Below are positions 1 to 20,203 of a stretch of 64,000 nt of DNA, one piece after another. Position 1 is the first letter of the stretch. Each line of letters begins with the position of its first letter. Origin of the DNA: Chlorella sorokiniana. Taxonomy: Eukaryota; Chlorophyta; Trebouxiophyceae; Chlorellales; Chlorellaceae. Under the pieces are notes generated by a model. It was not told where the DNA came from, made no database searches, and saw only the letters and a program-made list of their open reading frames with translations. Location of the stretch: assembly GCA_025917655.1 (NCBI GenBank), contig CP084620.1:2108001-2172000 (forward strand). The letters are read 5' to 3'. The position numbers and the translations under genes were made by a program.

Positions 1-274
1 GCCATGGTTGCTGCGGTTGGCACACTTGCCCCCAGCCCACCTGCATCTCAGGGTTGCCCATCAGCAATGACATGACCCCGCTCGCATCTGCCAGAAACTC
101 CAGCGACCATGAACCGTTGGCGGCACCTGGCACTGCTGCTGCTGCCACGGCAGCTGGAGGCGAGCTGGCGGCGAGGGACAGGTTGACCGGCAGCAGGCAC
201 AGCTGCGTTGCAGCCAGGCTGGCCACAGCCCATGGCGCAATCTTTGGCTTCTGCAGCAGGCGCTTGGGCAAGCC
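1..274 (-). CDS. Partial gene running off the left edge; one exon visible, function unknown
   Basis: On the minus strand an open exon runs from 274 (after a CTGCAG acceptor) to 41 (CAG followed by a GTGGG donor). The translation begins with a basic stretch (KRLLQKPKIAPW), then an Ala/Leu-rich stretch, and ends with LEFLADASGVMSLLMGNPEM. The basic then hydrophobic Ala-rich composition would suit a targeting peptide or a membrane-near segment, but I recognise no family. The first exon would lie upstream (above 300) and the rest of the gene lies outside the window. Both splice sites and the long open frame support an exon; this is the only evidence. Confidence 0.35.
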
Positions 275-795
275 CTGCAGGTTGTGGAAATAGATACATG
301 ATGTGAGGCAGGAGTGTGCACTTCACGTTGCCGCCGGTTCTTGCCCCCTGACGACAACGTGGGAGGTTCTGAAAGTTCGTGCGCGGTCGTCCGTCTTGTT
401 TTATGCGCTATGACGAAGCCGAGCACCAGAGTGATTGTATAATTACCGCTGCAAACCCACCCACCCTCCAATCAGGCAGCCCTTCCCGGAACTCCAGTGT
501 GGCTCGCCTGAACTGCGCAAGTGGTCACATGTCGATATGTCGAGTTTGTGGAGGGCGAAATCACGCCGTGACGGGAGGGTGAGCCAAGCTCGTGGACTGC
601 AGCCATGGATGGCCGAAAACCCCAACAGGCTGTGGAGGCTTTATAGGCCGTATAACAAGTGTCGATGGACCTGAAGACTTCGCAAGAAGGTTTCGCAGGT
701 TAGGTTTGGCAGGCCAAGAGTCTCCAATCAAGGGCCGCCGCGTGCTGACCTGGCCGTCACGGTCACAGCGTGGACGGCCCAGCTGCCGGCCCCAT
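275..795. other. Non-coding stretch
   Basis: Between the partial gene and the stop codon of the asparagine-synthase-like gene. Base composition is less GC-rich than the exons. It probably holds the 5' end of the leftmost gene and the 3' UTR of the next. I see no convincing exon, repeat or RNA gene. Confidence 0.4.
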
Positions 796-2698
796 CTACG
801 TCGCGCTCTCTTGTCCAGTGCGCATGTTCGCATCATAATGACCGCATGTCACGCAGAACGTCTGGTCAGGTGATGACAGCTGCCAGCCGCAGCAGGGGCA
901 GGGATCTGCGCCGTGGCGTGGCTTGCCTGGGACCTCGCCGCCGGGGAACGCCTGCCTGCAGCGGAAGGAGCGGAGCAGGAGAAGGGTGACTGGGAGGGCT
1001 GAGCTCCTCACGCAGACAATGCAAGGGTGCAGGATCATCCGATTACTTGAAAGCCAGAAAATAGTGCAGGTGCTCCTTATCCCTGATGGCAACGCCCTGC
1101 TGTGCCGCCTCGTGCCGTCCCCGTTCATATTCCGCATCGCTGCACGGTAGGAGACACATTGAAATGTCGGTATCCGTCGATTTCTGACCGTATCGCGTCG
1201 GAGTGCCTTGAATTTGGCACTGCAGTTAATGCAGCCCACCTGATGCGCATGCTGAAGTATCCGATGCCTGGCTCTGGCAGCCAGGGGCGATCGCTGAGCT
1301 CCGTGGTGCCGCACCCAACCTGCAGGGCGGGGGGTCCTCGGCAGCAATGCAGCTGATGCACGACACTTGCTGCTAGGACTGCAAGGCTCCTTGCGCTGCA
1401 CCTGCAGCGCCCCCTGCTCATCAGGCACACCGCCCACCCTCCCGGGGATCCCTCCACCAGGCACACCGCCCACCCTCCCGGGGATCCCTCCACCAGGCAC
1501 ACCGCGCACCTCTATGGGATCTTTGCGCCGCCACCGCACCGGCACTTCGGGACAGGCCAGCCGCAGCGGCATCTTGCCCAGGAGCTGCGGCGCGCTGCTG
1601 CTGGCCCCGCCCTCAGCAGGCCGCGCCTGCACGCAGTCGGCCTTGCTGAAGCCCATGGCTGCCCCCACCACCGCGGGCTGAGTGAATGGCGACGTGACGA
1701 ACACGCCAAAGTGTCTGCCTGCAGAAGCGTCAACCGCAGGAGGTGGGGGCGCTGCTGGACGAGCCGCACTGCACCAGTGAGGGAGTCAGTTGACTCCCTC
1801 ACAGGCAGGCGGCGCGCACGTGCAAACGCGAGTGCCAACCGCCAGTGAGTGATGCGTTGACTGCACGGCACCCACCCAACGGCACGCTGCCAAAGCGCAT
1901 CAGGCGGGCCATGCGCTCCCTGTTGTGCTGCCAGGCCGCGTCGTCCAGGCGGTGGGTGAAGCTGTAGCCGCCAAACAGCTCGTCGGCGGCGTCGCCCGTC
2001 ACGGCGCAGGTGAACCCCAGGGCAGCGGCCTCCCGCAGCGCTCTGCACACTGACGAGGAGCGAGAGATGACGTCGGCAGGAAGGATGCATTGGCAGGGTC
2101 AGCTGGCGAGGGCAAGGGGGCACAGCTAGACAGGCCTGACACTTCCTTCTGCCCGCCACCCCGGCACCAACCTGCCAGCTCGTTGCGCAGCGACATGCCG
2201 TCGAAGGTCTGCAGCACCCGCACGCAGACCGGCAGCTCCTGCAAGACGCCCTCCAGGTCGGTGTCTATCAGGTGGTGCTCCAGGCCCGCCGCTGCAGCCG
2301 CCACCTGCGCATGCTCGCGGTCGGTGCAGCTCGGGGTGGCCGTCACGGTGAAGGCCGCCCGCAGCCCCAAAATGTCCTTGCCCAGGCAGGCTGCGATGGT
2401 CGAGTCCAATCCCCCGCTGAGGATGACACAGGCCCTGCAGGGTTGAATGACCGCCTCAAGAACACCCGGAACAAAGTGGTGCAGTGCCAGTGCATCAAGC
2501 TCTGGGCACTGGCAGTAGCGTCACCAGCGGCAGTGCGGCAGTAGGGGCGTCAAAGGCAGGTGACATTGCCAAATGATCGCACCTTTCTCTGTCCCACTCG
2601 GGGTGTGCTGCAATGTCTTTCAAGGCTTGCACGAGGGTTTCCCTCAACTGCTGCACCCGCGCATCACAGGCATGTCCCTCCAAATCTCCTGTCCCCAT
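796..2698 (-). CDS. Asparagine-synthase-like ATP-pyrophosphatase with C-terminal zinc ribbon (no glutaminase domain)
   Basis: Seven exons join in phase: 2698-2583, 2434-2172, 2049-1876, 1718-1510, 1319-1240, 1139-1047, 955-796, giving about 364 residues. The ATP-binding PP-loop SGGLDST sits at the start of exon 2. GDAADELFGGYSF in exon 3 is the second signature of the asparagine synthase C-terminal (amide-transfer/adenylation) domain. RRKDPIE, split by intron 4 from VGCGTTELSD, and IRDKEHLHYF near the end match the compact single-domain members of the family. The last exon encodes CPCCGW...CVTCGH, a four-Cys zinc ribbon. There is no N-terminal Cys2 glutaminase domain, so ammonia or another amine rather than glutamine is the likely donor. 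The substrate is not known. By family it should adenylate a carboxyl group and form an amide. No frameshift is needed anywhere, unlike many neighbours. Confidence 0.85.
1422..1505. repeat. 36-bp minisatellite, about 2.3 copies
   Basis: Two identical 36-bp units (1422-1457 and 1458-1493) followed by a partial third, starting CAGGCACACCGCCCACC. They lie in intron 4 of the asparagine-synthase-like gene. The unit length is a multiple of three and the repeat stays open in one minus-strand frame (GGVPGGGIPGRV), but the flanking splice sites and phase place it in an intron. Confidence 0.85.
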
Positions 2699-3172
2699 GT
2701 TGTTCTATAAACACCGGGCAGCAGAGGACATTGTGTGCCCAAAGCAGGGTTGCATTTTTTAAGTCGCTTGCTTCGCCAAGCTGGCAACAGAATTGCGAGC
2801 TTGCACGTTCCTTGGATATCGGTGTAGCATGTTGTTCCACCTACTTAGCGCATTGCAAAAAGTTGCGCAGCCGGCCCTGGGAGACCCCCGCCGCCTGCTT
2901 GTGATGGAGTGGTGGGTTTGCTCATGCGCCACTTCCGGAGCCCCACTTGCAGCTGAAATTCCAGTAACTTGCATGCAGAACTCTGAAACACGCCTCCTGC
3001 TCAGCTGTGCAGCTGTTCAAGCACCAGCAAGGAGGTTGAAGGGAAGGAGGGCGGCTGCGTTGGGACAACCATCCAGCTCTAAGAACCGGTTCACTGGCCT
3101 TCGTCTCACATCTACTGGGTAGATAAGAATGTGGGGGCTCATGCATAACTGTTGTGCCAGAACTTGCATCCC
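2699..3172. other. Intergenic, promoter side of the asparagine-synthase-like gene
   Basis: Lies between the ATG of the asparagine-synthase-like gene and the stop codon of the CAP gene, both on the minus strand. It should contain the promoter of the former and the 3' UTR of the latter. No coding exon or repeat is apparent. Confidence 0.4.
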
Positions 3173-4570
3173 TTAGCCCTGCCTTGCTCCACGGCTCCTC
3201 TGTATCAGTGGTGCCACTTTCCTGGCACTGCTGCGCACGGTGCACTTTCCTCGTGCATCCTTCCGCCATCCAGCCTTGCAGGCCAGGCATGTCTTCTTGG
3301 CGCTGCATAAAGCGCACCTTGGCATTCTGCTGGGAGAGCAGGCGCTTACGCACTGCAAGCGGCGGCATGAGCAGCGGGGGCAGCGGCGACGTCAGCCACT
3401 TAAAGATTGTGATAGCTCGGCCCGAGACCCTCCTGAGACCCATGTGCTGGCCAGCACCAACCATGGCCCAGCTCCGCCAACGGTGTGCTCACCCGCTTGC
3501 GCGCAGCGTTGTATGTGATGGGGAACAGCGCCATCTCCTGTCCGTACTGCGGCCTCGCAAAGCATGCGGTGCAGCGCCTGCCGCTGCAGCTGGCGCACCA
3601 ATCGTCGCCCGTTGCCAGCTGGCAGCGGCTGCGCGGCACGTTGCGCTTGTACTTGGACTTGAAGTCCGGGGTCATGTAGAAGCCGGGGCCGTACCAGCAC
3701 ACCACATAGCTGCCCATCGCCCCTGGGCACCGCTTCAGGCCGCAGCCCAGCCGCGTCGTGTCGGTCCACAGCACTGCCAGTTTGTGCAGGGAGGCATGCG
3801 GCACGGAACCACGTCAGGGGCGTGACTGTGGGGACAGCAGGCAGCGGGCATTGCGGTGGTGCGCTCACGATTGACGAGGTGCCCGATGGGCATGTCGGGC
3901 TCCTTGGAGGTGCCGGGCACGTCAAAGTTGTAAGCCTGCAGGCGAGAAGGGCAGCAGCCTGATGCACCGTGCAATCAACTCTCACATGCAGCGGACATTC
4001 TTGTGCATCCGGCAGCCGGCTGGTCTTACCGTCACTTCCTGGTACAGCGCCCACGCCGCGTATGTGCAGGCGTCCATGCCATTCAGAGGGAAGACCACCT
4101 GGGGTGGGGAGCTCATGATACTCTCCCCATTTCCCTGCAGGCTGGTCCCATCAGTATGTCCCCAGCGGCACTTGTTTGCGTGAGCCTGCGCTTTCGTGGC
4201 CAAAGCCGCGTTCCATGACAGGCGCTTCACCAGGCCAGTGGCGCTGCAGGTTGCACAACGGCAGCGGTCGCACAGCGGTGTAGCAGTATTCCTTAGCTTT
4301 GGCATTCACTAATCAACTGGACCCATAAGCTTACTTATGCGCCGCCCTGAGGCTGTTGTGCATCGCCAGGACGCCATTGATGAAATCAGGGCAGGCTGCA
4401 CGCGCAGGGCAGCCAGGGAAGTGACTCCAGCGGGCGCCGGCGGGCGACTAGTGGCTGGAGGCGCGTTCAGCGTGACAAAGCGCAATCGCCGACCCACCTG
4501 AACTCACATCCTCAATGATCGCAAGTAATAGTGCTGTGAGCGTGAACAAGCGAGAGCCGGCTAAAGCCAT
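3173..4570 (-). CDS. Secreted CAP-superfamily (SCP/PR-1-like) protein with Cys-rich tail
   Basis: Six exons join in phase: 4570-4508, 4447-4335, 4243-4030, 3935-3869, 3773-3493, 3352-3173; about 305 residues. The first exon reads MALAGSRLFTLTALLLAII, a clear signal peptide. The CAP domain follows: LAMHNSLRAAHNATGLVKR, SWNAALATKAQAHANKC, GNGESIM, WALYQEV, AYNFDVP, GHLVNLLWTDTTRLGCG and YVVCWYGPG, in the order of the family (CAP1-4 motifs). After the domain comes a Cys-rich segment; the final exon adds a CALCSAKKTCLACKAGW pattern. Family members are extracellular, and act in defence, sterol or lipid binding, or wall biology; which applies here cannot be told. The start of exon 2 is the least certain boundary. 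Confidence 0.85.
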
Positions 4571-4765
4571 GCCCTTGTAGATCTTCGACAGGGCACACCG
4601 CGGCAGTTCTTTCGATGAAACGAAACAGTCAAGGGAACAACAATAAGTCGGCCTTTCGTGCGTATCGTCGAAAATACTGGCGGCAGGCAGGCGCCTGCTG
4701 TGCTCACCCGTCCAAAGGACGTCCCTGAACCCTGATGAGAAGAGGCTGTTGCAATCGTTTACAGG

Positions 4766-7045
4766 TCATGCAGGCGAATCCGGCCCTTTGCCGTTCTGCA
4801 AGAGAGGCTGCCGCAAGCCGCTATCATCATCAGCTGCCTCTTCTCTTTGCATCGGCTCGCATGGCGGCGACACTGCTGCAGACGCAGCCTCCTCATGCGT
4901 GCGCTGCATCCGCTCCAGCCGCGCCGCCCGACTGCCCGGTGGCAGGCAGATGCCGTCAGGCACATACGCCAGCAGCGGAAACAGCGGCAGGAATGCTGCA
5001 GCCTTGATGCATGCCGTCACCAGGAAGGTGTGGCGGAAGCCGATGCGTTCTATCAGGAAGCCGCCGACGGCTGCGCTGCCGCTCCAGCTGAAGGTGCGGA
5101 TGCTGTCGAGCCCGTTGACCTTGCCGCGGTGTCTCCTCGGAACAAAATCCATCAGGACTGCGTGAAGCCCAGGGCAGCATGGGGCAATCAGCGCAGTAAC
5201 GAGTCCTGAACAGGTCCCAGCTTAACACCAGACCAAGTTAAGGGAGCGCAACCCAGGACCTCCATGTGTCAAACACCCATCCACAGCCCGCCTTGCCTGA
5301 GCGCATGAGCGGGCGCGTCGCGTTGGCCACAGCTGCGCGTGCCAAGTGGACCGCCACCAGCACGCGGCGGTCGAGGGGGTGCCGTACGGCAGGTAGGCCA
5401 TCAGCACCAGCAAGCAAATGTCGAGGGAACGGGTCACCAGACTGCAACAAGGCAGCATGGGAGCACAGGGCAGGCTTGGGTACGCGGGAAAGAACAAGCG
5501 TGGGGGAGCGGAGGCATGCAGCAAGCACATCCGGCAGCGCCGCTTGACCCGGCCCACCTGATCTGCACCCGCCCCACACGCTTGGACAGCGGCTGGCACG
5601 CCACGGATGCTACGCTCACGCCCAGCGGCGACAGCGCGCCAATGAGGGAAACGGTTATAGGTTTGCATTTTACCGCTTGCATGAAGTACATGGCGAAAAA
5701 CTTAATGGTCATACCTGCAGCAGGTAGGGGGTGCAGACCGTGAGCCTAGCTGTGAGGTGCACAGCCTTTTGGGCGCCCATCTGCGCTGTGTGAACCCAAA
5801 GCAGGAGCTGCAGCAGGATATGGGCCGCGCTTCACCAGATGCAAATGCTCCAATGAAATCTGAAACAGTGATTAGTAATGCAACCATCAGGCCGGCGTGC
5901 AGCCGAATCCAGCGGCGAGGTTGGCCGCTTCCCTGATGCTGAGCCAGGCTCCCGAGGTTGCTGGCGGAGCCTGCCTCCACTGCGCATGAGCTCTGTTGCG
6001 GCTCCTGCTCTGCGCTGTCGGTGGCACAGGCGGCCTCTGCATGCCCGTGGCACTCTGCAAGCCCTGGCTCCAGGCCGTCGCTGGCGCCGTCAAGCAGCGG
6101 GGTCCTGCCGCTCTGGGCGTCTTGAGCCCCTGGGTCCGGCTGGCGCACCGCATGCTGCCGCCCGGCCCTCGCCCCGCCCCCTGGCAGCCCTGCTGATGGG
6201 CCAGCGCCTTGTCGTCGTCGAACAGGCACATGAGGGCCAGGGGGACCATGAGCGCCACGCCGCTCAGCAGCACCAGGCGGCAGTCCAGCGGGTCCCACCG
6301 GTTGCCGAGGTGGTGGAACAGGGCCAGGCTGAGCCAGGGGCCGAAGCTGCTGGCCAGCACGGTGATGGTGTACTTGCGAGTGAAGGGCCCGCTGCGGGGC
6401 CAACAGCAGGAGGAGCACGCCGATAGCAGGGGTGAGCCGCACTTGGACCAACCACAGAGTTGCTGGGCAAGCAAGCCTGACAGCCCTCCCATCGTGCCAC
6501 GCTGGCCCCCCACATCATCCCCGCACAACCACCTCCCGCCCCACCTCCTGCCCTGCTGGATGCTGTCCGCAAAGATGGCTTCCAAAGCCGCCGAGTAGAC
6601 GCCGCGGTAGCAGCCCAGCAGCGCCATGGCCAACCCCAGGACCCACACCGTGGGCCGCAGAAGCAGCGCCGCTGCCAGGACGCCGCCCGCCACTGCGCCC
6701 ACGGCCGCGCCAGCACGCAGCATCGTGTCGCGGCGGTGCCGGTCGGCCAGGTACCCAGTGGGCAGCGCTGTCAGCATCTGCATCACGCCGTTGGCGCCCT
6801 GGATGAGCCCCACCGCCGTGTTTGACTTGGTCAGCAGGTACAGCAGCGCGGACAGCACGTCGCCCGAGCGAACCGAGGCCGACATGTTCTCAAGCAGGCT
6901 CCACCACAGGGCCAACTGCAACGGGCAGGCAGAAGCAACAGTCAGAACAGCACGCGTGATGAACAACCAAGGCGGGCGGCAGCGGCGGCACTGATCAGAC
7001 CTCCCCTGTGGACAAGGTCTTAACGCGTGCTGGGCTGCAGGCATG
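4766..7045 (-). CDS. Major facilitator superfamily transporter
   Basis: Multi-exon membrane carrier. The N-terminal exon (to about 6560) contains LENMSASVRSGDVLSALLY, NTAVGLIQGANGVMQ and the MFS loop 2-3 signature GYLADRHRRD, followed by Ala/Leu-rich helices. Later exons give ITVSDFIGAFASG (exon end 5836), MTIKFFAMYF (5714-5558), SLDICLLVLMAYLPYG and RPLMRS (5441-5297), and MDFVPRRHRGKVNGLDS to the stop at 4766. The last intron has a GC donor (5296-5295). A one-base deletion in the G run at 5375-5379 is needed to keep the frame between YLPYGT and PLDRRV, and another shift is likely near 6100-6190. The start is uncertain: an ATG at 7045 is used here, but the true first exon may be further upstream. 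The substrate is unknown. It is transcribed divergently from the truncated RBD1 copy. Confidence 0.75.
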
Positions 7046-7340
7046 GCATTCTTGCCGCATTTCAGCAGCCTTTCGCGCGCCTCACCTTGACATTGTGATT
7101 GAGGTGCGAAGCAGGCATTGTTGCCCGCCAACACAGAGGCCTGGGAGGGCCTCCTGCTTCGCAGGTGTTACGAGATCAGAAGTGTTGGGATCTGAAATGC
7201 TTGCATCGCATGACGAACCGGCACAGCAGGGGCACAGCAGGGACAGAGAGGGCCAGACGACGCACGCCAGCCTTTGCTACATATTTAGCAGTGCAGCATT
7301 GTAACAGGACATCCTAGTAGGATCGATGGGACAGATAAGA

Positions 7341-7738
7341 ATGGCAGCCATCGCACCTGTGTCCGCTCCCACCCGGCTTGCTGTTGGGAAGAAGCCGTTC
7401 ACCGGCAAACTCGTGTCCAGGGTAAGTGTCGAGAGGCAACGAGGAACGCAACACGTTTTGAGGGCGTATGCGTTGGCACTCGTGCCACAGCGCCCACCTT
7501 GCCGACGAGCTCCGCCGACGGCTGCGATGCTGTTTCCCTCTCAGACTGTGCCCTGGTTGCCCATCAAGCACCTCATAGCTTGCGCAGAAAATTGACATAC
7601 TTGATGTTTCCTGCCTTGCAGGTGCATGCTGCCCCGCCTCGTCGTAGCACCGCCCGCCCTCTCGCCCAGACTGTGGCTGCTCGGGCCGCGACCAAGACGG
7701 CATACATCTGCGTTGACTGCGGTCATCTACCGCCTTAA
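7341..7738 (+). pseudogene. Truncated duplicate of the rubredoxin gene RBD1
   Basis: Exon 1 (7341-7421) and exon 2 (from 7622) match the intact gene at 14.1 kb almost base for base, with the same ATG, intron position and splice sites. The copy keeps the transit-peptide region and the first half of the iron site (YICVDCG). It then has a two-base deletion relative to the intact gene, and the homology stops at about 7731. The out-of-frame reading ends at a TAA at 7738. The second CPxC pair and the membrane anchor are missing, so it cannot make a rubredoxin. Its 5' flank (about 7013-7340) is also conserved with the intact copy, so it may still be transcribed. Confidence 0.88.
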
Positions 7739-7984
7739 ACAAATCAACTAGGAGCAATGTGGCATTGAAGCCTTGGGTGCTCGCAGGGACAAGCTTCTAA
7801 GGCTGGCCAACAAGGCTGGCCGAGGCTGGCTGGCGCCCACGACAGCCACAGAGCAGGGGACAGAACAGGCTGCTGCTGCTGCCAGGGGGCAGCGCCAGGT
7901 GCGCCAGTCGTTGGCTTGCGGTCACCCAGCACCACCGTTCCCCTGCTCACTGCTGGGCCAACCGCTGCTCCGTCCGCTGCGCAG

Positions 7985-8443
7985 CACCCCATTCAGGGCC
8001 AGGGCATCTGGTCGCACGTTACTCTGCTGGAGGTGAGGGCCGAAGAGGTTGCGGGCAGTGGCTGGCGGGGTTGAAACACCCGGCACTCGTGCATCACCTC
8101 ATAGCTCCCACCTTGTGCTGTGCTGTTTCCACACCCCGCGGGCGTTGCTGCCTCACTGATTCTGTGTCCTGTTTGGGTTCGTTCCCCCGCTCTGCCATCT
8201 GCTGCAGGGCGTGGAGCACAGCGACCAGCTGAAGAAGGAGCTGGTGATGTCGGCGCGGGGGCAGATTGGCGCCTTTGCCGCCCCCACGTCATCCACTGGG
8301 CCCCGGCCTGCTCATGACGCCGGCAAGATCATGCGCCGCGGGCTGAGCCAGATCGCATTGTTCGAGAGGACCAGCTGGGCGACACCTGCACCCTGGCGGA
8401 TCCCAGCATGGTGCAGACCCTGATTGACCTGCGCAGCAAGTGA
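7985..8443 (+). pseudogene. Orphan C-terminal fragment of acetyl-CoA synthetase
   Basis: Two exons remain: 7985-8032 reads HPIQGQGIWSHVTLLE, and 8208-8443 reads GVEHSDQLKKELVMSARGQ, IGAFAAP, then, in shifted frames, VIHWAP, GKIMRR and DQLGDTCTLADPSMVQTLI to a TGA. These are in the order of the C-terminal domain of AMP-forming acetyl-CoA synthetase, including the conserved lysine-bearing GK-IMRR motif. The intron between them is intact. Several deletions break the frame, including about four bases before GKIM, more than the single-base homopolymer changes seen elsewhere. No N-terminal part is present in the window. It lies directly after the broken RBD1 copy. Confidence 0.8.
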
Positions 8444-9259
8444 GCGGCCTGAAACCAGAATGCTGGCTGGAGCTGATGCAACCCACCCAGCCTGGAAACC
8501 GCATCGATGCTGATGCAAGGCTTCCTTCTTAGTTGCCAATGCAATGGCTCCTTTACACGGCTCCTGCATTGCCAATGTCTCCTTTCGTGTTGCCAACCAC
8601 TTGCCCTGCCTGCGGCATGCGTCCTCGACATGCTGCCCAATGCATCTAATGGCGCTATGTATGCTTGATTATCTTTTTGCATGGGAAAGTATCTATCTTC
8701 CTTGTCTGTGTTTTGCTTCTGCATGACTGCTAATGTTGGCTGTTGTACAGCCGTGCGACCCCGCTCCCCTGCTGCCATTTTTAAGCAGCCTCCCTTGCTA
8801 CACTGCCAACTGATATGCCTGCAAAGAGCAATGCTGATCATCACATTGCTTGAATCAACCCAGTATTACCCCAGGATGCCTTACATCGTCAGGAGCCGCT
8901 GGATGGAGGTGGCAAGGCTCTGTAAATGTCAGTCAGTCTCATTGCCGGGTGCCTGGTGAGGCCGGCGACAGCTTGGCCAGCCTGGGCACGTAATGTATCA
9001 CGCCCATTTGCCGCATCCATCACCCCTTTCATCTCAGCGTTGGGCCCCTCACGTAATTGCATAAACCTCGGCTAGCGGAGACGCCCGAGCTGGGAGGACC
9101 ACAGCATGCACGCCTTGGTGGTCTCCCCATGCCCATATGAGCCTGCGTTGCAGGATAACTCTAGCATTCTCCCTTCTCTACTTGCTAAGCAGATTTACCG
9201 CTGTGCCGCGACCTCCTTCGCGGTGCTTGGTCAACTTCCTGCTCGTTGTCTTCGCAGTC
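8444..9259. other. Intergenic between ACS relic and acetamidase
   Basis: The first half is AT-richer and has no convincing exon. From about 9030 the sequence is shared with 12810 onward (see the repeat entry), including GTAATTGCATAAACCTC, and should include the promoter and 5' UTR of the acetamidase gene. Confidence 0.5.
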
Positions 9260-9330
9260 ATGATCTGCAAGCCCCACGCCCTGGCCCTGGGGCTCCTTTT
9301 CCTCGCAATTGGCGGGAGCGCCAGGTGATC
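9030..9330 (+). repeat. Duplicated 5' region of the acetamidase gene, copy 1
   Basis: Contains the promoter-proximal GTAATTGCATAAACCTC, then CCACAGCATGCACGCCTT, and the first coding exon. A diverged second copy with the same order of blocks lies at about 12810-13150. This copy is attached to the complete gene. Confidence 0.75.
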
Positions 9331-12300
9331 AATGCACGCTGGATGTCCTGGGCATGGGGAGAACCTGTGGCCCTGGCAGGACAGCACAGTGGGCAGAGCA
9401 AGCCCACAGCTGCTGCCCACGACCTCTGTGGCCCAGTATGTCGCTTATCAAGCCGGGAATTGCACTGCGGGAACGCAATGCGCGATGGCGCCGGTCGCCA
9501 GAACGGCTTCCCTGAAGCTTTACAGGCTGCTGACCCTGCTGACGGCCAGCATCGCAGCCCACCCCTGAGCTCGGTTTATGCCTGCCTGCCTGAGTGCTTC
9601 CCTGCCCCCTTACCTCTTCCAACCATTGCAGGCGCCTCAGCCAGGCAGAGGTGCCCTCCATGTGCGCCATGCCGGGCGGTTCCAAGGAGCTCAAGGCCGA
9701 CTCCACCACCGTGGCCTGGGGCTACATCTTCCAGGTGGGCCAGGAGGGGTGAGAGGGTGGCAGGGAAATGGAATGCAGGAAGGAGGCTGGAGGGGAGAAT
9801 GCCAGAGCAGCCGCCCAGCAGGCATGTGCCCCAGCCTACACTGTGCATTGACATGCGCCGCCAGCTGTGGGCTCGCGCCGCCGTCAGACAGCTCAGTCAG
9901 ACAGCGCACGCATGCTTCCACTTTTGTTGCCAGGGCATCGAGCCTGCGATGGTGGCCAGCTCTGGCGACGAGGTGACTGTGGAGATGGTGACCCACCACG
10001 CGGGTGAGCCCTCCTGGCTCCGCCTGCTGCAGCTCAGCATGCAGCTGGCACTGCTGCCGGCTGCCCGCCCATGCTGCAGGCCACCAGCTGACCCCACCCC
10101 CGCCTCCACCAGCACCCTCCACTGCGCCCCAACCCCTGCAGGAGATGACTACGACAAGATGATCAAGGGTGACCCCGGCGTTGAGGACATCTACAGGTGC
10201 GGCGGGAGGGCGGCGGCATCCCCGCCTCGGCTTTGCTGATGCACGGCTTCCACCCCAAAGGCACCTTGTTCAGCACCTCGCGCAGCCGTGCTGGTGTCCA
10301 TCTGCAGCCCACGCTCCCTGCATCGCCCTCCCTGCAGGTGGACCGCTGAGGGCCAGACCATGTACATGCGCGGCGCACAGGGCGGCGGCGAGGGCAAGCA
10401 CATCATGACCGGCCCCATCTATGTGTGCGACGCGGAGCCCGGCGACGTGCTGCAGGTGGACATCCTGGAGCTGACGCCCGCAAGAACCCCGCCACCGGCA
10501 AGACCTGTGAGTTCAGGGGCCTGCGTGGGCACGTGACTTAGGGCGCCCTCAGTGCTGGTGAAGGCGGCTGTGTGTGTGGGTGTTGGGGTGTGGGGGGGGC
10601 CCCGCGCGGCATGAGCACAGCAGCTCTGCCGTACCTGGGGGCGTTGGTGCTGCCTTGGCATGCTCCCTCCGTCTGAACGCTCCACCTGATGCATCACCAC
10701 CTGCAGACGGCTCCAACGCCGCCGCCCGCTGGGGCTACCACTTCCGCGCCGGCTTCAAGGACGGCGACGTGCGCGAGGTGGGCCAGCGCAGGCGCACCTG
10801 CTCTGCCCACTCAGCCCACAGCTGGGCAGCTGCTCTGCCTTGGCAATGGCCTGCTCTCCTTGAGAGGCTCGTGCTGATGTCCTTCTCGCCCGCGCTGCCG
10901 CCGCCAGGTCATCACGATTTATGAGATTGTTGATGACAACGGCACGCTGTACCTGGAGCCTGACTACTCTTTCAGGTGGGCCTCGTGTGACCTGGCAGAA
11001 TGGCCTCACGGACAGAGCATGGCAGGCACGAAAGGGCTGCCCAGCTGAACCGCTCTCCGTGCCACGCACCTTTGCTGCAGGTATGCCGGGGCCCCACCGG
11101 CTACGTCGGCCCCACCACCAACTGCACCACCCCCAGCGGCACCATGCCGCGCGCCGCCGCGGGCGTCAACGTGGAGTGGAGCGCCGAGGACGACATCTAC
11201 TCCGGGTTCGAGGTGCCCTGCGAGAACGGCACCCAGACCTGGGAGGGCTACTACTACCCCGGCCTCATCACCACCCATCCCACCGGCACCGAGGACACCA
11301 GCATCCGGGGTGAGCATGCAGGGGCGGGCGGGGCAGAGGAAGGGCGCCTCAGCCCTGGTGGCTGCATGCGTGTTTTGGTCTGAACCTCCTGCGCCGGGCG
11401 CATGCAGGCAAGTTCCGCGTGCCAGCCAACCTGCACATCGGCAACATTGGCCTGGCGTATGCATACAACGAGACCGTGAGCACCATCCCCCTGGCCTTTT
11501 GGGCGGCAACATTGACAACAGGCAGGCGGCGGGAGAGTTGCACAGGGCCGGGCATCCTGCTGCTTTCGGTTTGCTGTACACCATGGGGTCAATCCTGCTG
11601 CAAAGGCACGATTTGTCTCGCCTCTCTGACCCCCCCCCCCCCCCCCCTCCTTCCCCCTCTCCCACCTGCCTCCAGGCGCATCAACGCCGGCAGCACGCTC
11701 TACCTGCCTGTGCAGGTGGCAGGCGCGCTGCTCTCCATGGGCGACGCCCACACCGCGCAGGGCGACAGCGAGCTGGACGGCACCGCTGTGGAGACGAGCG
11801 TCAACGGCAAGCTGAAGCTGACGCTGCACAAGAAGGACTCGCTGCCCAAGCCTGTGTCGGACCTGACCTTCCCCCTGGTTGAGACCGATGAGCACTACGT
11901 GGTGCAGGTGTGTGTGTGTCGGTTTGGCTGGGGCCCGGGCTGAACCTCCGACGTGCGCCGCACCGTGGTGGATAGAGCGGAGTGCCCTGCTCTCTGAAGC
12001 TGCCGGCTCTCCGACCCTTGCGCTGCTCTGCCCCGCTCCCCTGCCCAGGGCTACACCTACGCCGACTGGCTCACCGAGCTGGAGAACCCTCAGATCACCG
12101 TTTTCAACGTCTCCTCCTCGACCGCGCCATGACGGTTGCCTACAACCAGACCCGCGACTGGATGATGGGCACCTTTGACCTGACCGAGGACCAGGCCATC
12201 ACCGCCATCACCGTCGCCGTCGACTTTGGCGTGACCCAGGCAAGCCTTGTCGCCGCCGCCGCCGCTGCACCAAGGGTGTGGTGCTGCCAAGCGTCAGGGC

Positions 12301-12468
12301 TGTGTCGCGTTGGTGGCCACGGGCCACCTCTGCCACTGGTCGCCTGCGGGACGTGCCTCTGCGCGGCTGCCTCACACTCGTCAGGCCCCGCCCACACTCC
12401 CCCTGCAGGTGGTGGATGGCAACTGGGGTGTCCACGCGCTGGTGCCCAAGTCTGTGTTCCAGGCGTAA
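9260..12468 (+). CDS. Acetamidase/formamidase family enzyme with signal peptide
   Basis: Twelve exons: 9260-9324, 9632-9734, 9934-10003, 10142-10196, 10338-10506, 10707-10777, 10908-10975, 11081-11309, 11408-11521, 11676-11907, 12049-12239, 12408-12468. Exon 1 encodes MICKPHALALGLLFLAIGG, a signal peptide. Family motifs follow: VTHHAGDDYDKMIKGDPG, GPIYVCDAEPGDVLQVDI, RWGYHFRAGF, LHIGNIGLAY, GGNIDNR, LYLPVQVAGALLSMGDAHTA, QGDSELDGTAVE, VDFGVTQVVDGNWGV. The enzyme hydrolyses formamide or short amides to ammonia and the acid, so it would supply nitrogen; the signal peptide points to secretion or the endomembrane system. Introns 9 and 11 have GC donors. Four one-base losses (near 10478, 11089, 11489, 12105) break the frame but leave all motifs, so I read the gene as intact with sequence errors; a recent pseudogene is the alternative. 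Confidence 0.88.
11630..11647 (+). repeat. Homopolymer run of 18 C
   Basis: Uninterrupted C run in intron 9 of the acetamidase gene, just before its acceptor, extending the pyrimidine tract. Length is likely to be inexact given the other homopolymer problems in this window. Confidence 0.9.
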
Positions 12469-12508
12469 ACGGTTTCAGGGCCTGATTGTTGGGCCGTGCA
12501 CAGCATGC

Positions 12509-12572
12509 CTCTTCCCCCAGCTTATTAGCGCTCCCTTACCATTCTCTTCCCCCAGCTTAATAGCGCTCCTTT
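12509..12572 (+). repeat. Tandem 35-bp repeat in the acetamidase 3' region
   Basis: Two near-identical segments, 12509-12537 and 12544-12572, each beginning CTCTTCCCCCAGCTTA and containing TAGCGCTCC, 35 bp apart. They lie about 40 bp after the stop codon, so in the 3' UTR or just beyond it. Confidence 0.8.
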
Positions 12573-12809
12573 GATAACGCCACAACACTGGAATTATTGC
12601 CTGCAGCACCGCTAACCATCAACTCATTTCATCCATTATACTCCATAATTATACCTCATGTTACTCCCCTGAACTTGTGAGGTGGCCAGAAGCCGGTGGC
12701 AGGGCAGGGTGGCCCCAGCAGCATGGGTTGGGGCGGCTGTTGCCAGGGGGCCACGGCGCGGCCAGCTTGATCACGCGATGCGCCCTTCGCTAACTTCTGC
12801 TGTCCGTCC

Positions 12810-13150
12810 TCCTGCCTCCAAGCGTTGGACCCTTCAGGTAATTGCATAAACCTCTGCTTCAGGGACCCCCGCCCGCTGAAAAGGAGCCCACGAGACCACA
12901 GCATGCACGCCTTGTGCTCTCCCTGTGCGTATATGCACATGCGTTGTACATTGCTCTTACTTTATCCCTTCCCCCTCGCATTCCACAAACAGTTGATGCC
13001 TCGTCGGCCGTGCGTCGCCCATTTTCTGCCCCTCTGCCAGGGGTTCCCCTCCTCAGCCATGTCGCTCAAGGCGCATTGCCTGGCCGTCGGGCTGCTGCTA
13101 CTCGCAATCGGCGAAAACGCTCGGGCAGATTCGTGCGCAATGCCCTGCGC
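12810..13150 (+). pseudogene. Truncated second copy of the acetamidase 5' end
   Basis: Repeats the promoter-proximal block of 9030-9330: GTAATTGCATAAACCTC, then CCACAGCATGCACGCCTT. An ATG at 13060 encodes MSLKAHCLAVGLLLLAIGEN, a diverged version of the acetamidase signal peptide. After about 13150 the similarity ends and no acetamidase exon follows; the sequence passes into the MFS relic. It may be a dead copy of the first exon or the 5' end of a lost paralogue. A short secreted peptide made from this ATG cannot be ruled out. Confidence 0.65.
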
Positions 13151-13374
13151 ATGCCTGCGAGGCAGCCCACTGCTAGGTGGCCCTGGCAGGACTGGGAGCT
13201 CGGCTGTGGGTCGGCCATCCGCTGCTGTGTGCACATGTCCCAGAATCTCGCAGTACAAGGCCAACACTGCCCTGTGAAAGTGCATTGCACGATGTGCACG
13301 GCTGTGAGGAGGCTTTCCTGCAAAGCCCGGGCAGGCGCTAGACCCTTGGCAATGCAGCTTGTTGCCGCCCACCC

Positions 13375-13740
13375 ATTCGGCCAGCGGCGAGGCTGGCCGC
13401 TTCCCTGATGCTGAGCCAGGCTCACGAGGTTGCAGGCGGAGCCTGCCTCCGCTGCGCATGAGCTCTGTTGCGGCTCCTGCTCTGCGCTGTCGGTGGCACA
13501 GGCGGCCTCTGCATGCGCGTGACCCCTACAAGCCCTGTGGACTGCACTCTCGCATCTGCATCCCGCCATTGACGCCCTGGATGAGCCCCACCGCCGTGTA
13601 GGTCAGCAGGTACAACAGCGCGAACAGCACGTCGCCCGAGCGAACCGAGGCCGACACATTTTCACCACAGGGCCAACTGCGATGGGCAGGCAGAAGCAAC
13701 AGTTAAAACAGCACGGCTGATGAGGCGGGCGGCAGCGGCG
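13375..13740 (-). pseudogene. Relic of the MFS transporter gene
   Basis: Two stretches match the transporter at 4.8-7.0 kb: about 13375-13525 matches 5905-6056, and about 13565-13740 matches 6790-6970. The roughly 730 bp between them in the intact gene are missing. What remains covers part of the central loop and the segment around the first helices, with extra small deletions, so no transporter can be made. It keeps the same orientation and the same position upstream of an RBD1 copy as in the intact block. Confidence 0.8.
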
Positions 13741-14098
13741 GCAGTCATCAAGCCGTCTTCCCTGTGGAGAAGGTCTTACGCGTGCTGAGCTGCATGCATG
13801 GCACTCTTGTTGTATGTCAGCAGCCTTTCGCGCGCCTCACCTTGACATTGTGGTTTGGTTGCGAAGCAGGCATCGTGGCCCGCCGACTGAGAGGTTTGGG
13901 AGGGCCTCCTGCCCCGCAGTGGTTACGACTTCAGAAGAGTTGGGATCTGAAATGCTTGCATACTCGCATGACGAACCGGCACAGCAGGGGCACAGCAGGG
14001 ACAGAGAGGGCCAGACACTCCACGCCAGCCTTTGCTACATATTCAGCTGTGCAGCATTGTAACAGGACATCCTTGAAGGAACATTGGAAAAGGTGACA

Positions 14099-14866
14099 AT
14101 GGCAGCCAACGCATCTTTGTCCGCTCCCACCCGGCTTGCCGTGGGAAAGAAGCCGTTCACCGGCAAATCCGTGTCCAGGGTAGGTGTCGAGAGGCAAAGA
14201 GGAACGTAACACGCTTGAGGGCGCATGCGTTAGCACTTGTGCCACAGCGCCCGCCTTTGCCGGACGAGCTCCGCCGACGGCTGCGCCGCCTGTTGCCCTC
14301 TCAGACTGTGCCCTGGTTGCCCATCAAGCGCCTCATAGCTTGCGTGAAAACACGACTTCTTCGATGTTTCCTGCCTTGCAGGTGCATGCTGCCCCGCCTC
14401 GTCGCCGCACCGTCCGCCCTCTCGCCCAGACTGTGTCTGCTCGGGCCGCGACCAAGACGGCATACATCTGCGTGGACTGCGGTTACATCTACCAAGGGGA
14501 GGAAGGACCGTTTGAGAAGCTGCCCAACGGCTACAGGTTGGTGGGATACCTTTTCGCGATTAATGGCTGCCCCACTGCACGGCTGGCAATGCTCTGCACG
14601 CATCCAGGTCTTCATTGGTGGGTGCGCTTTGCTTCTATTGCAGGTGCCCCATCTGCTCTGCGCCAAAGCGCCGGTTCAAGCCCTACGCGGGCGCGGGCGG
14701 GCGCAATGATGCCAAGAGCATGAACAAGCGCTACCAGGAGATGCAGCGGGGTGGGGACGCGGCTGCCGCAAGCGAGGGCAACAACACGGGCCTTCTGATT
14801 GGCTTGGCAGCTGGCGCCGTGGTGCTGGGCGGCCTTTATGTCGCCTTGTCCAGCTACTACAACTGA
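14099..14866 (+). CDS. RBD1: Membrane-anchored rubredoxin RBD1, chloroplast
   Basis: Three exons, 14099-14179, 14382-14536, 14644-14866, give 152 residues. The N-terminus (MAANASLSAPTRLAVGKK...) is rich in Ser/Ala/Arg and fits a chloroplast transit peptide. The rubredoxin domain follows: YICVDCGYIYQGEEGPFEKL, then CPICSAPKRRFKPYAG; the two CxxC pairs bind one iron. A linker leads to one C-terminal helix, GLLIGLAAGAVVLGGLYVAL, placing the iron domain on a thylakoid membrane surface. Proteins of this architecture are found in oxygenic phototrophs, and RBD1 is known to be needed for photosystem II assembly. The frame is clean. A truncated duplicate lies at 7.34 kb, and the 300 bp upstream are conserved between the two. 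Confidence 0.95.
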
Positions 14867-15542
14867 CAGCAGGGGCTGCATGTCTGTCGGGAGCTGCAAG
14901 GGATTGGCTGCTGCAAAGTTTGCTGCCAGCAATGCTAGCGGGGAACTGAAGCTATTTGTGCATGCATTGATTTTTGTGCCTGATCACCGAGACAAGCCCT
15001 GCAGCTCATGAGGCTGTCTGCGTAAGTTTGTCGCCAGTACAGGGCTACCCCATCATTTCATCTTATTTTGCAACGCTTAGTCAACTCTGTATTCCGCCCA
15101 TTGTCAACACTCATTCCAGCTGTCTTGTGTCATGCCACTCATGGGCTAGGGCACGTTCGGCAACACAGAGCTATTGCATGCTACTAGTGCTGTTGCTGCT
15201 GCTCAGAGTTGGAGTTTTCCTTGCCTTCCCCTGCTGAGCTATCCTCTGACAAGTCCTGCTGCGGCAGCACGCCTTGATACTCGTACCTGCAGCCCAAGCG
15301 GCACAGTGAGCACAGCCACTAAGAGCATGGAGTTGCTTTGCGAAGAATTGGTCATTATCAAGCTGAGCTTGCCACCGCTTCCACACCTGAAGATGAACCC
15401 CTTGCCCAGGACAGCCAGCAGGTGGCGGCAGTCATCCGACAGGCCGCACGCACGCACAGGGGCTGCGAGCAGGCAAGGAGCACTACAGTAGCTGAGGGAG
15501 CGCCAAGCTCCACAAACAAGGTCTACTGATTGTTATTCAGGT
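14867..15542. other. Intergenic between convergent genes
   Basis: 3' flanks of RBD1 (plus) and the WD40 gene (minus). The composition is less GC-rich than coding DNA. I see no exon, repeat or RNA gene. Confidence 0.45.
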
Positions 15543-17412
15543 CTAGATTGAATCCAGCAGTGGTTGCCCTTGCCTGCTACCCCCTGCAAAGCCCAAGTCC
15601 TCACCAGCCACGCGGATAGCGCTGAAATGCGCCACTCTGTCGCCGCTCTCTGCGTCAAACACGTAGCAGTCGCCTTTGCTGTTGCCCTGCACAGCGGCAC
15701 TTGGGGACTAAATGATACGATACGATAGCCAGCAAGGACAAAGACCGCTATGGGTACCCATGCAGCTGCCAGCAGCATTCTACGTGAGGGTTCACGCACC
15801 GCCGCTATGTAGCGCCCGTCAGCGGTGCAGCCGAACTGGCAGCGATTCTGCCAGCTGGTGCCGCCGCTGCAGTTGGGCACTTTCCAAGAAGTTGCCACGT
15901 CCAGCTGCCAACCATTGTCGCAGCTGCCGCTGTCTGCATTGCTGCCGCTGCCGCCCGTGCTAAGGCGCCATACAAACATGCGTCCGTCGCACGATTTGGT
16001 GGCCAGGCGGCTGCCTGGGAGGAAGCGCTGCAGCAGGGCGACAACAGCACGAAGGCATGATGGTGGGAGCTGTAGCTCAGCACAACATTGTCGGCTCCAT
16101 TCGGGAAGCTTGCCAAGCACAGGCTTCCGATCCCCTGCCAACCTCACCAAGCAGTCTATTGCGTCGCTGTGGCTGCTGCCCTGGCACTTGACCTCCCGCC
16201 GGCTGCTCTCCTCGATGCTGCACTGCTGCGCTGCAGGTCCATCAGGTCCGTCAGGGGCTGGCGCTCCCCCTGGAGGCTGGTGCCAGCGCTATGCTGTAAC
16301 TAAAAAGGCGGCCCTTGCTGGTGCCAACCAGCAGGCTGTTTCCATCTGGCCCAGCCGCCTGCAGCAGAACCCCATGCATTTGATGGGAAACCAATTTGGC
16401 TGCCGAGCCCCTGGCTGAGGGAGCATGGCATGCCGCATAAGAGCCGAAGGCGGCACACACTCACCAGGCAGCACGCGTCGGTCTGTATGCTGGACAGGCA
16501 GGCCTCGGAGGGCACATCCCACAGCCGCAGGTCGCCGTCCCGCGACAGCGACAGCAGCAGGTCGGGCCTCGCTGGCACCGCGGCCAGCTCCACCACCTCT
16601 CGGGTGTGTCCGCGCAGCAGGCGCACCACGCGCGACTCGGCGACGCTGATCACTGCAGGCAGGCCAGTGGTCTGGTGAGCGGGAGCAGCAGCAGGGCTGC
16701 TCCCCTAACAGGCAAGACAGATCGCAAGCGCCGCCCAGCCAGCCAGGCGACGTGCTGCACTCCAGCTTGGTTTCGTTGCCTCCAAAACGCAGGCTTTACG
16801 CGCACGCCCCACCCACCCCCTTCTCCCGCCACCCCACCCTTGGGGGCGGGCCTTTCACACCCTAAGACGCACCCGAGATGTTTGTGTCGGCACCCGCAAC
16901 TGCCAAGCACGCGTCGCCCGCAGGGTGGTGGTCGTTCCAGCCTGCGGCGCTCATCCAGGCAAGCGCGTGCAGCTCGCCGCCGGGCGCGTGCTGCGTGGGC
17001 GCGTTGGTGAAGTGCGCTACCACGCCAACGTGGCCCCCATGTGCTCCCCGTCATACACGGTGGCCTGGTCTCGGCCGACGGTGGCAAACAGGTTGCTGCA
17101 GGCCGGGTCCACGTGGTTGAAGGCCAGCGCGTGCACCGCCGTAGCGTGACTTTCCTGCACACAGCGCAAGCCTGTGAGCTATGCCAAGCACAGAGGTTGC
17201 TGGAGCGGGCGCCCAGCGGGGAGCGGCACGCAGTTTGCACACAAAAAGCACCACGAGGCTCCAGAATGCACCATGCCATCAACATCTCACACCTTGACAA
17301 CTGTCTTCAGCTTCAAGTTTTGCAGGGCTTGCAGCCTGTAGGCAGCCAGGCCACCCAGGCGCCGAACCTCCTCCTGACGGGCCTCCATCATCCTTGCGGC
17401 CTCTGCATTCAT
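15543..17412 (-). CDS. WD40-repeat protein (possibly LRWD1/EED-like)
   Basis: Exon 1 (17412-17293) encodes MNAEAARMMEARQEEVRRL and a helical segment. Exon 2 starts at 17154 with SHATAVHALAFNHVDPAC, NLFATVGRDQATVYDGEHMG, then, after a one-base loss in the C run at 17034-17038, HVGVVAHFTN and LAVAGADTNIS. Later exons contain VVRLLRGHTREVVELAA, LLSLSRDGDLRLWDV (a canonical WD repeat), CDGRMFVWRL, FGCTADGRYIAAV and DCYVFDAESGDRVAHFSAI, ending at a TAG at 15543. At least five blades can be counted. The pattern of a single propeller with a TVYD element recalls LRWD1 and EED chromatin proteins, but I cannot assign it firmly. It is divergent from the amidohydrolase gene. Confidence 0.75.
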
Positions 17413-17863
17413 GGCGATGCACGCACCGGCGAATGGAGGGGAGGCTGCGTGAAAGTGAGATGACAAGAACCGATCGCAAGGCTGCACGGTGGGTAGGTGG
17501 GTAACATAGGCTTGCCAGTCGGTTTGGGATGACGATAATGCTTGTTGGAACAGCGCCCCCTCTTCCTGCCTGCCAGGTTGGCAGGATGCCGCATTCAATA
17601 CAAGCGGCCGCTTTGGAGCATCTCACATGCAACCATGAACATAAGGAGTTTGGCGGGGTCGCTGAGCCTGCTATGCCTGGCGCTTGCGCTAGCCTGGCCA
17701 CATGTCCCGTGGCACCTGCTGGGCACAAGGGGTTCTGGGGCCGTCTGCCCGTTGGTACGTGATCATTGACAGATGTGAATGTAGGTGGAACGTGTCTGAA
17801 GCGCCATGAGCTGCGCTGGTTGCAGGGCTTTGGCGCCGCTGATGGGCCCAACCCACACGGGAG
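17413..17863. promoter_or_regulatory. Divergent intergenic region (WD40 protein / amidohydrolase)
   Basis: The 450 bp between two divergently transcribed start codons must hold both promoters and 5' UTRs, and possibly a first non-coding exon of the WD40 gene. I see no specific motif that I can name. Confidence 0.4.
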
Positions 17864-20045
17864 ATGCTGCCTGGCAGCCTGGGCAGCAGCAGCAGCAAGT
17901 GGGCGATCCCCTGCCCGTCGGTGCTCAACAGCAGAGGCAGCAGCAGCCATTCAGAACCCTCAAGGCTGGTGTTGTACAGCAACGCGAGGGTGTGGACGGG
18001 GACCCGGCGACGCCGCACGCCGACGCGTTTGCCGTGGACCCCGCCACCGGGCGCTTTGCCTACGTTGGCGGCGCCGCCGGTGCCCCTCCTGCCGCCCGGG
18101 CGGTGGACTTGGGCGGGCAGCACGTGATCCCAGGCCTCATTGACAGCCACGTGCACCTGATCAACGGCGGCCTCAGCCTGTCCCGCCTGGACCTCTCCGC
18201 CGCCGCCAGCCGCCGTCAGTTTGTGGACGCGGTGGCGGCGGCCGTCGCAGGCCTTCAGCCCGGCGCCTGGCTCCTGGGCGGGGGCTGGGACGAGAGCCGC
18301 TGGGGCGGCGAGCTACCCAGCGCGGCCTGGATCGATGAGGGTGAGCTTTTGCGGTGGCAGGCTGCCGCACCTGTCACCCGAATCACACTGCACAAGACTG
18401 CGTGAGGAGCTGCACATCTGCTTGCGTGGCCACCACCCCTGTCCTTGTTTGCAGTGACCCCGGGCACCCCTGTGTGGCTCACCCGCCACGACAGCCACAT
18501 GGGCCTGGCCAACAGCGCGGCGCTGCGCCTGGCGGGCATTGAGCCAGGGAGCGGCGACCCCCGGGGGGGCCATACTGCGGGACGGCGGCGGCCAGCCCAC
18601 GGGGCTGCTCACGGATGCCGCCATGCAGCTGGTGGGAGGTGCGTGGCCGCGCTGGCGGGCAGGCCCTGCGGTCCAGGAATGGTATGCCGCGTGTGTGCCT
18701 CTGGCCGTCGCTGCCCTGCTTGCTGGACCCGCCCGTCGCTGCCTGCATGCTGGACCCGCCTGCCGCCTCCACATGCGCAGACCGCATCCCGCCGCTGTCG
18801 GCGGCTGAGCGGCGGGCGGCGCTGCGGGCCGCGGCGCGCCACGCGCTCAGCCGCGGCGTCACCATGGTTCACTGCATGGGGCGGGTGGCGTTCATGGAGG
18901 GCGAGGAGGCGGCGTGGCAGGACCTGGAGCAGGTGCTGCTGCCCGCGGCCGACGGCGGCGCGCTGCCGCTGCGCGTCTACGCCCTTGTGCCGCTGCCCAC
19001 GTGGCGGCGCATGGCGGAGCGGGTGCGCCAGCTGGGCGCCGCCCACCCCGGCGGCATGCTGTTCTGGGGGCGTCAAGGAGTTTGCGGACGGCTCGCTGGG
19101 GGCCAGGACCGCCCTGCTCCACCAGCCCTACGCCGACGCGCCGGGCAGCGCGGGCAGCCGCTCCATCACGGTGCAGCGGCTGCGGGAGCTGGCGGCTGGG
19201 GCGGCTGCCGCGGGGCTGCAGGTGGCGGTGCACGCCATCGGCGACCGCGCTGTGGATGACGTGCTGTCCATCTACGCTGAGCTGGCGGCCAACCGCAGCA
19301 GCGGCGGCGGCGGCGGCGACGGCAGGGAGCGGCAGCACCGCATCGAGCACGCCCAGCACATCTCAGGCCCCGGCGTCGCGCGGCGCATGGCGGCGGCGCG
19401 CGTCGCGGCCACCCCCAACCCGCTGCACCTGCTGGCCGACCGCCTGCTGCTGGAGGCGCGGCTAGGGTTGGAGCGGGCGGGGGCGGGCGCACCTACGCCT
19501 TCCGCACGCTGCTGGAGGCTGGGGTGCTGGCGGCCTTTGGCAGCGACTGGCCCGTGGTGCCGCTGGATGCGCTGGGTGAGCGCCCGCTCCGGGTGGGGGC
19601 TGGTTATGTGGGCACGCCCTTGCTTGTCGTGGCTTGTGTGCATAGCAAGGACCCTTCTGCGCTGCTGCTTCCACAGCCGAAACAGGAGCAGTGGAACCTC
19701 GAATGCTTTTGTTTAAGTGTCTGTCTGAAGAAGGCAGTCTGCCCTTCTCACTGGCTGCTGGCGTCCGATGCCCTCGCAGGCACGCTGCACGCGGCGGTGC
19801 ACAGGCGCGCTCCCCACAGCCACGAGGCGGCCTGGGCGCCTGAGGAGGCGCTGACGCCCGCAGAGGCGCTGACGGCGCATACGCTTGCAGGGGCTGCGGC
19901 GGCGGGGCTGGAGCGGGAGCTGGGCAGCATCGAGGCTGGCAAGATGGCCGACTGGGTGTTGCTGCGCGGCACGGCAGGCCCCGGCGACGCGGCAGCGGCA
20001 GTGCAGCAGACGTATGTAGGAGGCAAATGCATGCATGGATGCTGA
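17864..20045 (+). CDS. Amidohydrolase family 3 (YtcJ/LAF3-like)
   Basis: Four exons: 17864-18340, 18455-18638, 18781-19575, 19780-20045. The N-terminus reads LVLYSNARVWTG, the typical small beta sandwich start. The metal-binding HxH is in VIPGLIDSHVHLINGG. Later come LTRHDSHMGLANSAALRLAG, VKEFADGSLGARTALL, VAVHAIGDRAVDDVL, HRIEHAQHI and FGSDWPVVPLDALG, and a C-terminal TPAEALTAHTLAGAAAAG and GKMADWVLL as in the family. It should be a metal-dependent hydrolase of an unknown amide or related substrate; the plant relative LAF3 affects phytochrome signalling. Apparent frameshifts at 17998-18001, 18558-18569, 19066-19070 and 19477-19483 all fall in G/C runs and each is repaired by one base. Confidence 0.88.
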
Positions 20046-20203
20046 CCTCTTGCAGTGTTGCTGCCAGGGTTTAGACACGCGTGACATTGGAACTGTTGCG
20101 GCGGTATGGAGATGCTGAGGAAAGCCCGGGCATATCGCTGTCGCCCTGGCTCACAGGGCCGTGTGTGAATTGAAACCCTGAACGACATGTGTAGTTCGAG
20201 AGA

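Follow-up and report, generated by a model that had tools for sequence, protein, structure and literature searches.

How does a pair of head-to-head genes come to lie at one locus as two complementary broken copies, with one gene whole in the left copy and the other whole in the right? The question is raised by a 64,000-nucleotide stretch of the Chlorella sorokiniana genome (assembly GCA_025917655.1, contig CP084620.1; C4:2108001-2172000), hereafter the window, within which positions are counted from the first nucleotide. Two genes are concerned, one encoding a transporter of the major facilitator superfamily (MFS) and the other, RBD1, a rubredoxin that is by homology an assembly factor of photosystem II (PSII). 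An earlier note on this DNA had described a duplicated pair that kept one working member of each gene, and had read it as two intact pairs that each lost a half. The pair is indeed duplicated, and one full-length member of each gene lies at a separate place, but descent from two intact pairs is not supported. The explanation that we favour overall, with modest confidence, is an insertion-type duplication of the target, which would have left each gene whole once in a single step.

The duplicated stretch and its limits

Comparison of the window with itself bears out the earlier description of sequence shared between about 5.90-7.73 and 13.37-14.49 kb. Two segments are involved, and both keep identical order and orientation in the left and right copies: 5909-6066 matches 13381-13537 (94%, E 5e-65), and 6754-7731 matches 13533-14493 (86% including gaps, E 0). 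The left copy of the stretch (5909..7731) holds the 5' part of the MFS gene, a shared start region, and the 5' part of RBD1; the right copy (13381..14493) is without a counterpart of left positions ~6067-6753. The deletion from the right MFS gene that had been reported earlier is therefore real, but it removes ~690 bp rather than ~730 bp.

Mismatches fall at 8 of 157 ungapped columns in the first segment and at 100 of 932 in the second (6774-7732, with 10 indel events). Over both, the alignment proposed in the earlier note gives a divergence of 9.9% (108/1089 ungapped columns); a global alignment put 5909-6066 in the wrong place. The identity of three noncoding pieces of the repeat is 0.87-0.88, whereas their shuffled versions average 0.43-0.44 and reach 0.58 at most; the similarity is thus far beyond chance. 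Exons, introns, and the intergenic region are alike in their left-right identity (0.85-0.905 in seven of eight features, the eighth being misaligned), an evenness that fits partial copies drifting freely. A DNA search of the whole genome (38.8 Mb in 15 contigs), with scores computed for the best candidates only, found no copy beyond the left one and the two pieces of the right one. The window has a further pair of direct repeats, at 46202-47448 and 60612-61782, ~14.4 kb apart and 73-86% identical in gapped pieces (98% in one piece of 175 nt), which has the look of a duplicated gene.

Both ends of the repeat lie inside genes, at 5909/13381 in MFS and at 7731/14493 in RBD1, where homology between the copies stops. 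The copies do not adjoin but are separated by 5649 bp of other sequence. The outer genes are whole (MFS on the left, bar a doubtful frame slip, and RBD1 on the right), and the inner copies are partial.

Whole and partial copies of the two genes

The accumulation of PSII depends on RBD1 in Chlamydomonas, Synechocystis, and Arabidopsis (PMC3772215). The complete C. sorokiniana gene (14099..14866, forward strand), identified from its match to PF00301, its relatives, and a genome search, has three exons, at 14099-14179, 14382-14536, and 14644-14866. As the earlier note had held, it is complete: the spliced reading frame is open and encodes 152 residues, scoring 26 bits against PF00301 (Rubredoxin; cut-off 23) and 26.2 against PF21349 (cut-off 26.5). 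The hallmarks of RBD1 are two CxxC knuckles in the rubredoxin domain and a C-terminal hydrophobic stretch; the right copy has the knuckles CVDC and CPIC and a hydrophobic C terminus. A protein search returned 23 proteins, with relatives in Micractinium and Chlorella, the first six listed being 55-79% identical. Among six matches in the genome, 14099-14866 is the only complete RBD1. Elsewhere, C11:287213-287293 (L017) encodes a rubredoxin-like stretch of 27 residues, at 56%, within a 229-residue open frame.

Open frames and residue comparison define the truncated left copy (7341..7738, forward strand), which consists of exon 1, intron 1, and part of exon 2. It reads AYICVDCG-HLPP-stop, with a 2-bp gap just past the first CxxC, and so retains the first knuckle only; that it is cut off at this point, as originally proposed, is evident from this stop and from the end of homology at 7731/14493. 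The window contains two versions of exon 1, of intron 1, and of the beginning of exon 2, with GT/AG splice signals both times. Over the start region, the left and right copies are identical at 50-53 of 57-59 residues; with each of five relatives, including those of Micractinium and Chlorella, the figure is 27-33. The copies therefore parted, or were last homogenised, after the splits from those relatives.

The left MFS gene (4766..7118, reverse strand) was delimited by tblastn, its start exon, and the last open frame, which ends at 4766. Stretches of the relatives P0025, P0029, and P0028 align between 6921 and 4799, reaching the end of the gene, and the start exon (MPASHLNHNVK, 7118-7086) is followed by GTGAGG. 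Matches to MFS_1 were obtained on three pieces, all under the family cut-off. The gene has the sole full-length set of MFS matches in the genome and aligns with its relatives along its length, in agreement with the earlier view of a complete transporter, apart from one doubtful frame slip near 6170. P0027, a protein of JGI source with 99% identity across 27% of the query, lacks this slip, which is why single-base breaks of frame cannot be relied on in this assembly. At ~6250, the left gene also misses a codon that P0027 has; slip and codon both fall in G/C runs, and they reflect either small indel errors or differences between strains.

Of the right MFS gene, a remnant is left (13381..13873, reverse strand; tblastn and residue comparison), comprising a start exon (MPASQPNHNVK, 13873-13841), a damaged exon 2, and a 157-bp 3' piece. 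The left and right versions of the 3' piece share 37 of 43 residues, whereas the two agree with the nearest relative, P0024, at 28 and 27.

The shared start region

The MFS and RBD1 starts stand head to head and are separated by 222 bp on the left (7119..7340) and by 225 bp on the right (13874-14098). Both copies keep this spacer, in agreement with the earlier note, in which the repeat covers the MFS/RBD1 intergenic region. With corrected limits, left-right identity is 0.865 for the spacer and 0.879 for both the RBD1 and the MFS introns; as the spacer does not exceed the introns, the comparison gives no sign of special constraint.

The adjacency of the two genes is probably ancestral, because in Micractinium tetrahymenae they carry consecutive locus tags (MFS ABPG75_006489 and RBD1 ABPG75_006490), with the same 4329782-bp contig listed for both. 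Likewise, P0030 (MFS) and P0013 (a piece of RBD1) have the same longest contig listed, of 60726 bp. These observations suggest that the pair is adjacent and in single copy in relatives. Among the papers listed in literature searches, none is by its title about this locus, and a search for a rubredoxin with a bidirectional promoter found no papers.

The earlier note had further supposed that RBD1 was moved to new surroundings. This is correct insofar as the intact MFS gene no longer adjoins it. However, RBD1 lies only ~7 kb from that gene and retains a copy of the upstream region that it had originally, and a large relocation is not indicated.

Origin of the arrangement

What series of events could have produced this arrangement? 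In the explanation that we favour, the ancestor would have carried a single head-to-head MFS-RBD1 pair. One repair-type rearrangement would have doubled a 1.82-kb stretch with its ends in MFS (5909) and in RBD1 exon 2 (7731), and other DNA would have filled the space between the resulting direct copies. Because the genes are head to head and the copies lie in the same orientation, such a doubling leaves each gene whole once, in one step: MFS would have remained whole on the left and RBD1 on the right, and the two inner copies, partial from birth and probably dead at birth, would since have been decaying. Small indels and the loss of ~690 bp would have followed in the right MFS remnant. As to the filling, it would be a segment related to chromosome 3 (C3) that carries the tail of a synthetase gene, one acetamidase gene, and the beginning of another, and its donor a now-missing relative of the C3 block, unless the flanks were homogenised later.

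A similar end point would be reached had a larger unit, with both genes whole, been duplicated and opposite halves then been lost from the copies. This history accounts equally for the one full-length member left of each gene, and the right copy did lose part of MFS; it demands, however, a bigger unit and two large terminal losses that left no trace. Remnants of the outer sequence, in forward orientation, were sought in the intervening block. The sequence to the right (14494-21000) gave no forward match to it, only four short ones on the reverse strand (18-34 columns), and that to the left (1-5908) gave no match at all; the block compared with the rest of the window yielded a single reverse match of 34 columns. 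When the outer regions were compared with each other, three reverse matches were found and one forward, of 118-170 with ~18915-18968 (54 columns, 74%, E 0.009); this forward match lies clear of both the block and the copies. In a control of sensitivity, covering the RBD1 side only, pieces of 14494-20000 were planted in the block at 12.5% divergence, and those of 40, 60, 100, and 200 bp were recovered in 50 of 50 trials at each size. Evidence that both copies were ever complete was thus not encountered, the block holding no forward outer remnants even though planted 40-bp pieces were detectable, and we consider a duplication of complete genes improbable. Because the window has no second copy of the block, we rejected a tandem duplication in which the unit was 7.5 kb long (5909-13380) or comprised the block together with the pair.

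The block between the copies

The earlier account, sound in substance on the repeat, passed over the block that separates the two copies (7732..13380, forward strand). The block is largely paralogous to C3:3554333-3559022, which it matches in order and on the opposite strand; the genome search gave eight matches, among which are the block's own and one at a second place on C3. Direct comparison with C3:3554326-3559022 gave seven colinear matches, plus one stray of 41 columns and one for the start of the second acetamidase.

First in the block is a fragment (7981..8447, forward strand) that, from its C-terminal sequence, we take to be the 3' end of an acetyl-CoA-synthetase-like (ACS) gene. It is defined by matches to C3, being 75-77% identical to C3:3558547-3559022, with a last exon 84% identical to C3:3681273-3681460; a Pfam scan of one piece of it gave no match. 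The two similar synthetase-like genes on C3, at C3:3558548-3562315 and C3:3681273-3684943, lie ~122 kb apart.

An acetamidase/formamidase gene (AmdA) of 13 exon pieces follows (9260..12468, forward strand), of which pieces 8 and 9 adjoin and which has frame slips in the assembly. It matches PF03069 (acetamidase/formamidase; E 1e-25), which rules out a multicopper oxidase, and is 82% identical at the amino acid level to its C3 paralogue. The two paralogues have a frame slip in common in the fifth exon piece (10338-10506; C3:3556594-3556426), in addition to slips that they do not share. In a tree of 22 rows, the acetamidase of the window groups as sister to that of C3 (support 100/100), their 82% identity comparing with 56-73% to the other 20 rows. 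On this placement the block is, among the rows sampled, a putative lineage-specific paralogue.

The block ends in the 5' fragment of a second acetamidase-like gene (12808..13378, forward strand), recognised from alignments and comprising the upstream region, the first exon, and most of intron 1. The alignments give 80% over 51 bp, 73% over 154 columns, and 0.60 and 0.54 over 230 and 241 columns; against C3, identity is 60% at 12895-13288. The block meets the right copy flush at 13378/13381, the edge near 13378 being judged by eye. A mobile element was considered and rejected, since the block is not bracketed by any of the nine inverted-repeat pairs within 7700-13420, all of them short (16-27 nt, 78-89%).

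Acetamidase genes may be neighbours in related algae. In Parachlorella kessleri, the acetamidases P0042 and P0113 carry the consecutive tags N2152v2_001023 and 001022; among the acetamidases, no M. tetrahymenae tag occurs in the 120 listed of 4542.

Relative ages of the block and its flanks

Several observations weigh against a duplication and filling in one event. A target duplication of 1.8 kb is long relative to known repair duplications, and the 249 bp at the left end of the block (7732-7980) are without a match or known source. The timing relative to P0024 is mixed: unlike the MFS 3' piece, exon 2 has the left copy agreeing with P0024 at 32 of 35 residues and with the right copy at 30 of 35, a conflicting signal that decay of the right exon 2 may explain. 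Between the block and C3, identity is 0.43-0.60 in 11 AmdA introns, five of which are not above the best of 20 shuffles, 0.55 in the ACS intron, 0.62 upstream of AmdA, and 0.42 between ACS and AmdA, where shuffled means are 0.42-0.48. The block is therefore not as similar to C3 as the target copies are to one another (noncoding identity 0.42-0.62 versus 0.87-0.88). Had the filling been copied from the present C3 locus in that one event, equal divergence would be expected, and a missing donor or later homogenisation of the flanks must be added to the proposal.

The flank values, with the limits first drawn, are 0.878 for the RBD1 intron, 0.874 for the MFS intron, and 0.869 for the intergenic region. 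Since noncoding identity to C3 is lower than this, the block apparently split from the C3 lineage considerably earlier than the flank copies separated from each other. Fourfold sites differ at 44/212 and 8/45 between block and C3, as against 5/40 and 4/58 between the flanks, a roughly twofold gap from few sites. That comparison dropped segments of fewer than 12 columns, misassigned the frame of the last AmdA piece and of parts of ACS and MFS, and had the MFS start pieces out of register; noncoding identities and residue counts are preferred. On noncoding divergence, a recent direct copy from the present C3 locus is rejected, and the gap in age leaves a choice between a donor that is now missing, a block that stood close by beforehand, and an older insertion followed by homogenisation of the flanks.

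The last of these would make the insertion of the block an old one, with duplication of the 1.8-kb target, flanks kept alike by gene conversion, and a start region evolving in concert; alternatively, an old cassette would have jumped recently from a lost locus or from another lineage. We regard this pair of histories as possible but on the unlikely side. A weak test for the patchiness expected of gene conversion gave p 0.066 for heterogeneity and p 0.023 for the longest identical run (75 columns), values that are slightly off because a gapless alignment of the first segment was used (13/152 mismatches, compared with 8/157 when one gap is allowed).

An acetamidase block that already stood beside the MFS-RBD1 pair would also be older than its flanks. 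A recent copy of MFS and the start of RBD1 would then have been placed across it, and a deletion would have fused the second acetamidase to the right MFS gene, truncating both at 13378/13381, which would explain why the two fragments abut. Two events are required, however, and the extra copy of the block that some versions predict to the left of 5909 or to the right of 14493 is not in the window; this history is in our view rather unlikely.

The same divergence bears on whether the arrangement is an artefact of assembly, whether by mis-joining of haplotypes or by mis-insertion of a segment. Apparent small indels in G/C runs, seen between P0027 and the window and as frame slips in both acetamidase copies, would be in keeping with such errors. 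The copies, however, are ~10% different and have distinct flanks, and the block differs too strongly from C3 to be a stray copy of it, making an artefact very improbable.

Comparison with known systems

Under the one-step duplication that we favour, the breakpoints alone settle which gene stays whole where, and a head-to-head pair can split into two single-gene loci, each with a start region, with no interval of lost function. Complementary broken copies thus need not mean reciprocal loss, a natural misreading that is here corrected; RBD1 is whole and remains close to its former partner. As in reciprocal gene loss after duplication, each gene has one working member, the two being in different places; that process, however, begins from complete second copies, which are not evidenced here.

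Tandem duplications with gene-internal breakpoints offer a closer parallel. In these, breakpoints fall inside genes, and the inner junction yields gene fragments or chimeras; our own reading of the geometry is that it leaves the outer genes whole. The present case differs in having a 5.65-kb block between the copies, so that no simple chimeric gene results. For the patch-repair duplications of rice, PMC7971508 describes insertion-type direct duplications of the target as common, with some perfect ones exceeding 1 kb and the longest reaching 4.9 kb; their share, initially 70% of events, has dropped to 5% by 200 bp. Related references are Vaughn and Bennetzen (2014) and a 2016 PNAS paper on tandem duplications in plant genomes. 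The rice duplications, as described there in the passages on them, are perfect tandems and not ones filled with several genes. The rearrangement is an instructive example of a known and fairly ordinary kind, and the point of some interest is that young flanks surround an old block.

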